From Crenalkalicoccus roseus (GTDB lineage Bacteria; Pseudomonadota; Alphaproteobacteria; Acetobacterales; Acetobacteraceae), in NCBI RefSeq assembly GCF_004761865.1, contig NZ_SJDM01000011.1:1-64000 (forward strand): a DNA stretch of 64,000 bases, written 5' to 3'. A program made the translations under genes and the position numbers. Under the pieces are notes generated by a model. The model was given only the letters and a program-made list of their open reading frames with translations, was not told the DNA's origin and did not search any database. Each line of letters opens with the position of its first letter. The first letter of the stretch is position 1. Positions 17,469 through 52,062 of the stretch are shown piece after piece.

Positions 17469-17563
17469 GGTCTGGTTGCTCCTCCCGGTCCGGCGGGCGT
17501 TCCCTCGCGCCCGCTCGCCCCCATGATGGGCCGCGCCCGCCCCGGTGCCAACCGGGGGGCGCC

Positions 17564-18499
17564 TCAGCCGTGGGGCAGGCGCAGCCCCGGCTCGTCCCAG
17601 GGCAGAGAGACCAGCCGGCCGGTCAGGGACAGCGTGACATAGGCGGTGCGCATGTCCGGCCCGCCGAAGCAGATGTTGGTCGGCATGCGCTCCGGCATCC
17701 GCACCGTGCGCAGGATCTCGCCCTCGGGGGAGACGGTGGTGATCTCCCCGCTGACCAGCGTGGCGACACAGATGTTCCCCGAGGCGGTCACTGCCAGGCT
17801 GTCGAGCCGCCGGTAGCCCGGGAACTGGCAGAGCATCCGCCCGCCGCTGGTGGAGGGCCAGGGCTCCTTGCGCAGCACGCCCGGCCCCTCGACCGGCCAG
17901 GCCCAGAGACGGCCGGTCTCGGTCTCCGCCACGTAGAGGGTGCGGCCGTCGGGGGAGAGGCCGATGCCGTTGGCGCCGCCGAAGATGGGATAGGCGGCCT
18001 CGACGATGCGGCTGCCGTCGGCGGCGGCCCAGTACACGCCGCCATGGTCGCGGTCCCGCGCCCGCACCTTGCCGAGGTCGCTGAACCAGAAGCCGCCCTC
18101 GCCCGGGCTGCCCGCGGGGGCGAAGACGATGTCGTTCGGCCCCTTCAGCCGGTGTTCCCCGCAGCCTTCGTAGAGCACGCGCACCGCGCCCGAGGCGGGG
18201 TCGATCACCTCGATCCGTCCGCCGCTGTAGTCCGGCGCCGGCGCGACGGGGCGCAGCATCCCCGGCTCCTCGTGCCAGGCGAAGCCGCCGTTGTTGCAGC
18301 AGTAGATCCTGCCCCCCGGCCCGAGGGCGATGCCGTTCGGCCCGCCGCCCGGCGTGGCGACCACCGTCTTCGTCCCGTCCGCGGCGACGCGGGTGATGCG
18401 CCCGGCGGCGATCTCCACGAGCAGCACGGAGCCGTCCGGCATCGCCACCGGCCCCTCCGGGAAACGCAGCCCCTCGGCCAGCACGGTCAGATCCGTCAT
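17564..18499 (-). CDS. SMP-30/gluconolactonase family lactonase
   Basis: 311 residues forming a six-bladed propeller. Conserved segments are LRFPEGPVAMPDGSVLLVEI (metal Glu in the FPEGP turn), GGPNGIALGPGGRIY, LKGPNDIVFAP (metal Asn) and GANGIGLSPDGRTLYVAET. Members hydrolyse sugar lactones using a divalent cation. No signal peptide, so probably cytoplasmic. The start codon overlaps the stop of the GT-C membrane gene (ATGA), an odd pairing for a lactonase. Confidence 0.88.
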   Translation of the reverse strand: MTDLTVLAEGLRFPEGPVAMPDGSVLLVEIAAGRITRVAADGTKTVVATPGGGPNGIALGPGGRIYCCNNGGFAWHEEPGMLRPVAPAPDYSGGRIEVIDPASGAVRVLYEGCGEHRLKGPNDIVFAPAGSPGEGGFWFSDLGKVRARDRDHGGVYWAAADGSRIVEAAYPIFGGANGIGLSPDGRTLYVAETETGRLWAWPVEGPGVLRKEPWPSTSGGRMLCQFPGYRRLDSLAVTASGNICVATLVSGEITTVSPEGEILRTVRMPERMPTNICFGGPDMRTAYVTLSLTGRLVSLPWDEPGLRLPHG

Positions 18500-21798: not shown

Positions 21799-23460
21799 AT
21801 GCCAGACGCCAAGCCCCCTGCCCCGCCCGACCCCGTCACCCTCGCCGTGCTGGATGCGCGCCTGCGCGCCATCGTGGAGGAGATGGGGGAGGCGATGCTG
21901 CGCACCTCCTACTCCCAGATCCTGAACTCCTCGCGCGACTTCTCCATCGCGCTGTGCGATTCGCGCTGCCGGCTGGTGGCGCAGGCGGACCACATCCCGG
22001 TCCATGTCGGCGCCATGCCCTGGGCGGCGCGGGCGGTGGCGGAGGATTTCGCGGGGCAGGTCCGGCCGGGCGACACCTTCCTGCTGAACGACCCCTACCA
22101 TGGCGGCAGCCACCTGCCGGACCTGACGATCGTGCTGCCGGTCTTCGGGGAAGGCGCGCTGCGCTTCTGGTCGGTGGTGCGGGCGCACCACACCGATGTC
22201 GGCGGCGCCACCCATGGCGGCTACAACCCGGGCGCCACCGAGATCTGGCAGGAGGGCATCCGCATCCCGCCGATCCGGCTGGGGGAGGGCGGCGGGCTGC
22301 GCGAGGACCTGCTGCGCATGCTGGTGACGAACACGCGCCTCGCCCGCGACGTGCGCGGCGACCTGATGGCGATGATCGGCGCCGCGCGGCTCGGCGAGGC
22401 GCGGCTCGCACCGCTGCTCGCGCGGCACGGGGCGGAGGCGATGGAGGCGGCGGTCTCGGCCATCCTCGACCTGTCGGAGGCGCATGCGCGGCGCATCGTC
22501 GCCGCCTGGCCGGACGGCGAGTGGACCGGCGAGGCCTTCCTCGACGATGACGGGTTCGGGCGCACCGACATCGCCATCCGCGCCCGCGTCACCAAGCGCG
22601 GCGACGGGCTGCGGGTGGACCTCTCGGACTCCGACCCGCAGGCGACGGGCTTCGTCAACTCCTCCTACGCCAACATGCGGAGCGCCGTCGCCATGGCCTT
22701 CGCCTTCCTGCTCGACCCCGAGGTGTCGAAGAACGACGGCGCCTTCCGCCCTCTGGAGGTGATCGCGCGCGAGGGCACCATCGTCTGGGCGCGGGAGGGC
22801 GCGCCGGTGACCATGTGCACCAGCCATTGCAGCAACGAGATCGTGGAGGCGATCATCCGCGCCATGCAGCATTGCTGCCCGGAGCGCGCCATGGGCGGCT
22901 GGGGGCGTCGCTTCCGTGTGGCGATCACCGGGCGCGACGCGCGCCGGCCGGGCCGCTCCTTCGTCTGGCACATGTTCCACGCCCGCCCTGGCGGCGGCGG
23001 CAGTTCGGGCGGCGATGGCTGGTCCACCGCGGGGGAGTGGCACTCCGCCGGCGGGCTGAAATTCGGCAGCGTCGAGATGGCCGAGGCGCGCTTCCCGCTG
23101 CATTTCGAGCGGCACGAGTTCCTCCCCGGCTCGGCCGGGGACGGGCAGCACCGCGGGGGCCTCGGCGGCGAGCTGGTGCTGCGCGTCGAGAGCGACGGCC
23201 CCTGCCGCGCCAACACCGCGGGCGACGGCGCCCGCCACGGCGCCGCCGGCATCCTGGGCGGGCGGGACGGCGCGCCGCACCATTACGTGCTGCGCCACGC
23301 GGATGGCACCGAGCGCGTGCTGCGCACCAAGGAGGTCGGCATCGCGGTCGCGCCCGGCGACCGGCTGCATGTGCGCGCCGGCGGCGGCGGCGGCTGGGGC
23401 CCGCCGGAGCGGCGCGACCCCGCGCTGCGGGAGCGCGACGCGCGGGAGGGCTACGTCTGA
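21799..23460 (+). CDS. Hydantoinase B / oxoprolinase beta-type subunit
   Basis: 553 residues, matching HyuB-type subunits that act with HyuA in ATP-dependent hydrolysis of N-methylhydantoin, 5-oxoproline or related lactams. Visible markers are TVLDARLRAIVEEMGEAML-like start (residues 13-33), NSSRDFSIALCDSRCRLVAQ, HIPVHVGAMPWA, DTFLLNDPYHGGSHLPD, VVRAHHTDVGG and the glycine-rich end HVRAGGGGGWGPPERRDP. The next gene (HyuA) overlaps by one base. Oxoprolinase and acetone-carboxylase relatives share this fold, so the substrate is unproven. Confidence 0.93.
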   Translation: MPDAKPPAPPDPVTLAVLDARLRAIVEEMGEAMLRTSYSQILNSSRDFSIALCDSRCRLVAQADHIPVHVGAMPWAARAVAEDFAGQVRPGDTFLLNDPYHGGSHLPDLTIVLPVFGEGALRFWSVVRAHHTDVGGATHGGYNPGATEIWQEGIRIPPIRLGEGGGLREDLLRMLVTNTRLARDVRGDLMAMIGAARLGEARLAPLLARHGAEAMEAAVSAILDLSEAHARRIVAAWPDGEWTGEAFLDDDGFGRTDIAIRARVTKRGDGLRVDLSDSDPQATGFVNSSYANMRSAVAMAFAFLLDPEVSKNDGAFRPLEVIAREGTIVWAREGAPVTMCTSHCSNEIVEAIIRAMQHCCPERAMGGWGRRFRVAITGRDARRPGRSFVWHMFHARPGGGGSSGGDGWSTAGEWHSAGGLKFGSVEMAEARFPLHFERHEFLPGSAGDGQHRGGLGGELVLRVESDGPCRANTAGDGARHGAAGILGGRDGAPHHYVLRHADGTERVLRTKEVGIAVAPGDRLHVRAGGGGGWGPPERRDPALRERDAREGYV

Positions 23461-50342: not shown

Positions 50343-50445
50343 GGCCCCCTGTGCCGGAGCCCGCGGCGCCGATATCACGCCCCCGGGCGGCCCCGCCCCT
50401 GCCATGCCTCGCCCCGCGGCGGGCGCTTTTCCGGAACCTGCGGCG

Positions 50446-51186
50446 ATGATCTGGCTCCGCTCGGCGCTGTTCAACCTGGCCTTCTATCTCGGCAGCGCCG
50501 CGCTCGCGGTGCTGGCGCTGCCGCTGCTGCTGGCGCCGCGCCGGGCGGTGGTGGCGGTGATGCGGCTGTGGTCGCGGGCGGTGCTGGCGCTGCTGCGCGC
50601 GGTCTGCGGCATCCGCGTACGGGTGGTGGGGGCGGAGCACCTGCCACGCACCGGCGCGGCGCTGATCGCGGCCAAGCACCAGTCGGCCTTCGACACCATC
50701 GTCTGGCTCGGCCTGCTGCCCGACGCCGCCTACGTGCTCAAGCGCGAATTGCTGCACCTGCCCGTCTATGGCTGGCTCGCGCGCAAGGCGCGAATGATCG
50801 CGGTGGACCGTCGGGCCGGGCCCGCCGCCATGCGCCACCTGATCCGCGCCGGGCGGGAGGCGGCGGCGGAGGGGCGGCAGATCGTCATCTTCCCCGAGGG
50901 CACGCGGGTCGCGCCCGGTGCCCGGGTGCGCTACCAGCCGGGAATCGCCGCCCTGGCCGCGGCGACCGGCCTGCCGGTGATCCCGGCCGCCACCGACAGC
51001 GGCCTGTACTGGGCCCGGCGCGCCTTCCTCAGGCGCCCCGGGGTCATCACCCTGTCGATCCTGCCTCCGCTGCCCCCCGGCCTGCCGCGGGAGGCGCTGA
51101 TGACGCGGCTCGAGCAGGCGATCGAGGAGGAATCGCAGCGCCTGCTCGCCGGGCCCGCCGCGAAGGGGGGCGAGGCCTGTGGATAA
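50446..51186 (+). CDS. plsC: 1-acyl-sn-glycerol-3-phosphate acyltransferase family (PlsC)
   Basis: 248 residues from the ATG at 50446; an ATG at 50404 would add 14 unconserved residues. An N-terminal helix leads to the acyltransferase motifs AAKHQSAFDTIVW (HX4D), MIAVDRRAG, FPEGTRVAPGA and a VIPAATDSGLYW block. It acylates lysophosphatidate in phospholipid synthesis. The stop codon TAA is part of a perfect DnaA box. Confidence 0.92.
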   Translation: MIWLRSALFNLAFYLGSAALAVLALPLLLAPRRAVVAVMRLWSRAVLALLRAVCGIRVRVVGAEHLPRTGAALIAAKHQSAFDTIVWLGLLPDAAYVLKRELLHLPVYGWLARKARMIAVDRRAGPAAMRHLIRAGREAAAEGRQIVIFPEGTRVAPGARVRYQPGIAALAAATGLPVIPAATDSGLYWARRAFLRRPGVITLSILPPLPPGLPREALMTRLEQAIEEESQRLLAGPAAKGGEACG

Positions 51187-51444
51187 ATCCGTGGATGAGG
51201 CCGCGCGGCGGCTTTGTCCACATGCGAGAGGCAGGCCGCAAGTCCCTGCGATTCCCTGGACTCCGCACCGCCGGAAGGGGCGGGATGGAATCTATCCACA
51301 GCCGCGCGCCGCACACAAGTCATTGAATACAAAAGATTTGCCTCGGGCGGCCCTTGTGGCGGCGCAACATGCCCAGGCAGGCAGGGAAGCCGCAACAGGG
51401 CGCGCCGGCGGCGTCCCCAGCCATGGCGGACCGGTTGTGGACAA
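51178..51444. other. Cluster of DnaA-box-like sites; candidate oriC
   Basis: Between plsC and chaC five 9-mers resemble the DnaA box TTATCCACA: 51178 (perfect, minus strand, tgtggataa), 51190 (cgtggatga, two changes), 51214 (ttgtccaca, one), 51292 (ctatccaca, one) and 51436 (tgtggacaa, one). Between them lies an AT-rich patch at 51317-51340 (aagtcattgaatacaaaa) that could unwind. No gene is visible in 51187-51465. In so GC-rich a genome this density is very unlikely by chance. It may be the chromosomal origin or a DnaA-titrating/regulatory site. Confidence 0.6.
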
Positions 51445-51465: not shown

Positions 51466-52062
51466 TTACGCGGGCGGAAGCAGGGCCGCGACGCGATCCA
51501 GGCCCGCATCTCTTACCCCCATTGCGCGAAGATGCGCAACCGTATTCAACAGATAGTCGCGGTTCGGCCCCGCCTGCCCCACGCCGCGGGCGATCGCCGC
51601 CGCGGCGGCCTGCGGGCAGAGCCGGCAGTAGCTGGGATGCCGCCGGTTGGCGACGAAGGCGACGGCGCGCACCTCCCGCCCGCTGTCGAGCAGCCGCACC
51701 GGCAGCAGGCGTCGCTCGTACACCGCCTCGGCCGTCGGCATCTCCCGCTCCTGCAGGTAGGCGAGCACTGCCTCGGCGGCCGCCCCCGGCACCCGGAAGG
51801 CGACGCCGCGGCAGGCGCCGCCGCGGTCGAGGCCGAGCACCAGGCCGGGCGCCTCCGGCGTGCCGCGATAGAGGCGGCTCCACAGGCAGAAGCGGCGGTG
51901 CCAGCCCCGCAGCAGGGCCGGGTGCATCTCCGTGTAGGGGAAGCCCGGCTTCCAGATCAGCGAGCCGTAGCCGAACACGTAGAGGTGCCCGTCCGCCTCC
52001 AGCTCGGGCGCGGCCGGGGGCAGCAGCGTGTCGGCAGACAGGAGGGGCGTGGCGTCGGGCAT
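51466..52062 (-). CDS. chaC: ChaC-type gamma-glutamylcyclotransferase
   Basis: 198 residues. The nucleotide-like P-loop YVFGYGSLIWKPGFPY, LLRGWHRRFCLWSRLYRGTP, LGLDRGGACRGVAFRVP and the catalytic Glu region YLQEREMPT are all present, as is CRLCPQAAAAAIARGVG. ChaC cleaves gamma-glutamyl peptides such as glutathione to 5-oxoproline. It starts at 52062 and its stop faces the putative origin region. Confidence 0.93.
   Translation of the reverse strand: MPDATPLLSADTLLPPAAPELEADGHLYVFGYGSLIWKPGFPYTEMHPALLRGWHRRFCLWSRLYRGTPEAPGLVLGLDRGGACRGVAFRVPGAAAEAVLAYLQEREMPTAEAVYERRLLPVRLLDSGREVRAVAFVANRRHPSYCRLCPQAAAAAIARGVGQAGPNRDYLLNTVAHLRAMGVRDAGLDRVAALLPPA

Follow-up and report, generated by a model that had tools for sequence, protein, structure and literature searches.

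A conserved, helix-phased DnaA-box array between plsC and chaC is the probable replication origin of a Roseomonas-group Acetobacteraceae bacterium

The window analysed here is the whole stretch of 64,000 nucleotides (74.6% GC). It holds two converging genes, a plsC-like acyltransferase gene and chaC, which both point into an array of DnaA boxes at positions 51178-51444. The genes and features of the locus are as follows.

50404-51186, plus strand: plsC-like acyltransferase gene, pointing into the array (PF01553, E 2.5e-22)
51178-51186, minus strand: perfect DnaA box TTATCCACA, the plsC-side anchor box; invariant or TTG in relatives
51190-51198, minus strand: weaker DnaA box TCATCCACG with two changes, 12 bp from the anchor box, with which it forms a tandem pair
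51214-51222, plus strand: DnaA box TTGTCCACA with one change; conservation in relatives not clear
51239-51248, minus strand: conserved CAGNNNCTTG motif, here CAGGGACTTG; near-invariant alignment columns
51292-51300, plus strand: middle DnaA box CTATCCACA with one change, in opposite orientation, 114 bp from the anchor box
51310-51339, no strand: AT-rich patch (33% GC), candidate unwinding element, overlapping the IHF-like site
51316-51328, minus strand: IHF-like site ATTCAATGACTTG (WATCAANNNNTTR with one change), the sole match with at most one change in 64 kb
51436-51444, minus strand: DnaA box TTGTCCACA with one change, the chaC-side outer box, 258 bp from the anchor box and in the same orientation
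51466-52062, minus strand: chaC gene, pointing into the array (PF04752, E 1.9e-39)

The first-pass annotation had placed five boxes with 0, 1, 1, 1 and 2 changes in these 267 bp, and all five positions were confirmed. The same holds for its remarks that the perfect box contains the plsC stop codon (a TAA, the open reading frame ending at 51186), that an AT-rich patch lies among the boxes, and that the cluster is free of genes. Only 0.013% of the 30-bp stretches of the window are as GC-poor as 51310-51339. When at most one change from TTATCCACA is allowed, the 64 kb contain exactly four DnaA boxes, all of them within 51178-51444. First-order Markov simulations of 267-bp sequences gave a mean of 0.015 boxes and a maximum of 1 (2000 runs); four were never reached. 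Matches to the looser pattern TTWTNCACA with one mismatch are not unusual (6 vs. 4.0 expected in the window), and four of these six are concentrated in the array. The bacterium's own genome (4.43 Mb, 127 contigs) has 17 copies of the strong form TTRTCCACA, three of them in the array, and no second close pair of such boxes was found in the 4.43 Mb.

GANTC, the CcrM methylation site, is rare in the window (0.56 per kb) but present at 51250, 51259 and 51288 inside the 267-bp array, an enrichment that is partly explained by base composition (simulation P = 0.024). In relatives the corresponding densities are 3.95 vs. 0.81 per kb. The only tRNA gene of the window is a tRNA-Pro (GGG) at 23365-23446.

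A search with chaC yielded 80 loci, 48 of them from Acetobacteraceae (L011-L058). At least one box was found within ~420 bp past chaC in 37 of these 48 loci and two or more in 24, and the 10-kb flanks of the chaC loci were mostly without boxes. The array is common to the Roseomonas group of the family, where it occupies the gap between plsC (or ydcF) and chaC/DUF2125. It is absent at the chaC loci of Roseococcus, Rubritepida and a few others, and at distant ones (Acidocella, Hyphomicrobiales), apparently because the neighbourhood differs; its absence in Roseococcus and Rubritepida counts against the oriC reading. Loss of the boxes in relatives had been named as a ground for giving up an origin at this site; the array is instead kept in one copy and at the same place in the Roseomonas group. 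Read from chaC towards plsC, the alignment begins with a box, continues with an AT-rich stretch containing TCAANNNNTTR, which is the IHF consensus core, and often has a reverse box next. The plsC half consists of a block of the form AAAA..CAG..CTTG..GCTG followed by the weak and strong tandem boxes 12 bp apart. Across 27 aligned sequences 18 columns are invariant and mean column identity is 46%; the CCAC core of the second tandem box is invariant in all 27. An IHF-like site with at most one change was present in 28 of 33 relatives, compared to 5.5% in simulations, and its distance to the anchor box is nearly always 130-151 bp, mostly 131 or 141-143 bp. The CAGNNNCTTG block is nearly invariant across genera (columns C100-A101-G102 and T107-T108 are invariant or nearly so) and matches neither a DnaA nor an IHF site. 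It may be used by a further origin-binding protein.

We built a sequence-only model of the array (172 positions) and searched it against genomes. One strong place each was found in the bacterium's own genome (best match E 1e-20, next match 0.002), in Siccirubricoccus sp. G192 (G001, the genome of locus L012; 6e-22 and 0.06), in Belnapia sp. F-4-1 (G002; 5e-24 and 0.03) and in G004. Among 150 family genomes, 64 matched the model at E <= 0.01, of which the weaker ones may be chance. Some matched genomes are identical or close to training sequences, and many are distinct genera. Of the 30 best family-genome matches, 28 adjoin ydcF, plsC, chaC or DUF2125. The neighbourhood variants among the best matches include plsC-array-DUF2125 without chaC, one that lacks plsC, and one with just chaC and DUF2125. 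Since the array is kept where chaC or plsC is gone, it outlasts its neighbours. No plasmid in PLSDB carries it. Other box pairs were seen at two places. A small Belnapia contig (G002:C8) has two perfect DnaA boxes 218 bp apart at 17524-17750, possibly a plasmid origin. The one-contig family genome G103 has perfect boxes in opposite orientations 43 bp apart (G103:C1, 2684-2735); gidB and parS are 8 kb away, and that branch may have its origin at another place.

The outer same-strand boxes are separated by 224-227, 238, 246-248, 256-258 or 267 bp, depending on the species (258 bp here), and by 270 and 285 bp in two divergent lineages. These distances step by one helical turn, the best period being 10.4 bp (R = 0.77, p = 6e-4 for distinct values). 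Collapsed to cluster centres, they gave p = 0.0015 without the two divergent lineages and p = 0.04 with them; these lineages were dropped only after being seen, and 0.04 is therefore the conservative figure. The spacing of anchor box and middle reverse box is 114-115 bp in 10 of 11 cases, and the variable segment is the other one (132-133, 143-144 and 153 bp). The oriC of E. coli tolerates changes of a whole turn between its boxes but is harmed by those of part of a turn (PMC4285127). The helix-phased spacing argues for one phased DNA-protein complex. Phasing alone fits an origin and a datA-like site alike.

We regard the plsC-chaC array as the probable oriC of this Roseomonas-group Acetobacteraceae bacterium (probability roughly 0.78). 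This assignment is the most likely one, and is not proven by base-composition skew or by the position of parS. The first-pass annotation had proposed a candidate oriC here. That proposal gains support from a conserved, one-copy, phased array with an IHF-like site; its description as five boxes alone did not hold up as well, and tandem boxes plus an IHF-like site fit better. In the proposed mechanism, DnaA would bind the strong tandem boxes at the plsC end, the middle reverse box and the chaC-side box. IHF would bend the DNA at the site between the boxes, which would loop the DnaA complex and bring the helix-phased boxes together on the same face. The AT-rich patch, which adjoins the IHF site, would be opened next and the helicase then loaded for initiation. 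A DnaA origin requires boxes, and the array is the densest box cluster in the ~1.5 Mb of Siccirubricoccus that were read. No other strong-box cluster was found on the Siccirubricoccus chromosome, and no box cluster was found near gidB in the contiguous stretch read, which speaks for the array. A TGATCCACA pair at 878 kb of the same chromosome was dropped as a candidate, as it lies inside a gene call.

Strand composition was studied in near-complete relatives, on the 5.48-Mb contig of Siccirubricoccus and partly on Belnapia and G048 (one contig, 3.37 Mb), using GC skew, GGGNAGGG (KOPS-like), 6/8-mer strand scores, gene direction and GC3 skew. GC and KOPS skew resolved the origin only to several hundred kb, and in two near-complete relatives the skew-change region, several hundred kb wide, contains or borders both the array and parS. 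In Siccirubricoccus the array is at 0.813 Mb and gidB/parS at 0.554 Mb, and strand signals near the origin are too weak to tell these sites, ~260 kb apart, from each other. KOPS-like motifs there switch sharply at ~3.2-3.3 Mb (terminus) and broadly at ~0.55-0.9 Mb (origin side). Belnapia has its terminus at ~4.5 Mb and its origin side within 0.8-2.1 Mb; the positions there are 1.437 Mb for the array and 1.681 Mb for gidB/parS. In the AGGGCAGGG map of G048 the array and parS tie at 59/94 each, and the best fit lies between them. No KOPS-like flip was seen in the window's own flanks, which speaks against an origin here. The distance from dnaA to the array is 1.47 Mb in Siccirubricoccus and 0.82 Mb in Belnapia; according to a survey, dnaA is not near ori in Rhodospirillales (PMC8116508).

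The main rival explanation is that the array is a DnaA-control site of the datA/DARS kind, in which a box cluster and an IHF site titrate DnaA or change its nucleotide state, the real origin with weaker, Caulobacter-like boxes lying near parAB/gidB. We consider this improbable. Both datA and DARS2 are likewise non-coding and contain DnaA boxes together with an IHF site (PMC5742627), and parAB lies close to ori in nearly all alphaproteobacteria, some Rhodospirillales being exceptions (PMC8116508). The parS/gidB sites lie hundreds of kb from the array (~250 kb in Siccirubricoccus and Belnapia, ~0.8 Mb in G105 and 1.4 Mb in G048), and the position of parS is thus the main evidence against the oriC reading. 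Terminus symmetry in Siccirubricoccus also slightly favours gidB, which, at 0.55 Mb, agrees better than the array (0.81 Mb) with the point opposite the inferred terminus (3.21-3.28 Mb). KOPS-like motifs between 0.555 and 0.705 Mb run 24:13 in the direction expected for an origin at gidB. Against this stand the lack of a box cluster near gidB in the contiguous Siccirubricoccus stretch and the lack of another close pair of strong boxes in the bacterium's own genome or on the Siccirubricoccus chromosome. The AT-rich patch moreover belongs to the conserved array and, to our knowledge, datA or DARS function needs no such patch. Ribosomal RNA operons normally run with replication, and their direction was usable in Belnapia only, most genomes giving no 16S matches. 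All three Belnapia operons are on the minus strand, and the nearest, at 1.402 Mb and 33 kb from the array, points away from it, so that the origin should lie to the right of 1.402 Mb. This orientation fits an origin located at the array or slightly to its right, though one at gidB fits as well. In G048 (contig C1), parS is found at 1619132 and 1621027 and the array at 3028414, a gap of 42% of the chromosome. The possible readings for G048 are that origin and partition centre are uncoupled, that its contig has been rearranged, or that its origin is not the array.

That the array is a conserved transcription-end or regulatory element of plsC/chaC (a terminator, sRNA, riboswitch or DnaA-regulated promoter) with incidental boxes is very improbable, even though it lies at gene ends and overlaps the plsC stop codon. 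Because plsC and chaC converge, so that neither promoter is in the gap, and because no RNA structure or Rfam family was recovered, a promoter or RNA is unlikely. Pattern searches of the array for promoters and terminators gave no match, nor did an Rfam search, and RNAalifold on 27 sequences gave no conserved pair; RNA element, terminator and promoter were rejected on these grounds, and the array also persists in genomes lacking chaC or plsC. A chance clustering of 9-mers resembling DnaA boxes, for which the ordinary frequency of the looser pattern could speak, has a negligible probability, as four boxes appeared in no simulation and conservation of their positions across many genera already refutes it.

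The array-as-oriC reading bears on a group in which origins are poorly located, since in Rhodospirillales dnaA is no marker and GC skew is weak. Our literature search for a mapped Acetobacteraceae origin returned no paper, and the Acetobacter cerevisiae genome paper gives an origin by software prediction only (PMC13209655). The putative oriC would be of a known kind; for its location between plsC and chaC we found no earlier report. A model with one orthologous candidate per genome offers a testable origin for dozens of genera. A wider proposition, which we hold tentatively and at somewhat less than even odds, is that in this part of the family oriC lies between plsC and chaC/DUF2125, detached from dnaA and, in some species, by as much as 1.4 Mb from parS, and that box spacing evolved only in whole turns, so that natural origins record the phase rule known from E. 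coli mutagenesis. Helix-turn-quantised spacing is evidence from natural variation for a phased DnaA-IHF complex. The large separation of ori and parS, if real, would question the obligatory place of the partition centre beside the origin.

The closest known system is the E. coli oriC, 245 bp with DnaA boxes, one IHF site and an AT-rich DUE (PMC5742627, PMC4285127). As in E. coli, TTATCCACA-type boxes in both orientations extend over ~260 bp with one IHF-like site between them and an AT-rich patch, and spacing varies by whole helical turns only (PMC5742627, PMC4285127). Unlike the E. coli oriC, the array has only five clear boxes and plsC and chaC as neighbours, its AT patch shares sequence with the IHF-like site and is not placed outside the first box, and the region is without AT-rich 13-mers and without GATC. 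The Caulobacter crescentus Cori resembles the array in being alphaproteobacterial, with one IHF site and few boxes. Cori has weak G- and W-boxes plus high-affinity CtrA sites (PMC4468827), whereas the boxes of the array are strong (TTATCCACA/TTGTCCACA). The tetramer TTAA occurs nowhere in the 64-kb window, so the window has no full CtrA site, and none was found in 23 relatives; the array is accordingly not of the Caulobacter type, which has CtrA sites and G/W-boxes. Like E. coli datA and DARS2, the array combines non-coding DnaA boxes with an IHF site and keeps its position in relatives. These two sites act on the nucleotide state of DnaA and are no origins, and their described parts do not include an AT-rich unwinding element (PMC5742627). 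Of the marks of an oriC, the array shows an intergenic box cluster, an adjoining AT-rich element, one orthologous copy per chromosome and helix-phased spacing.
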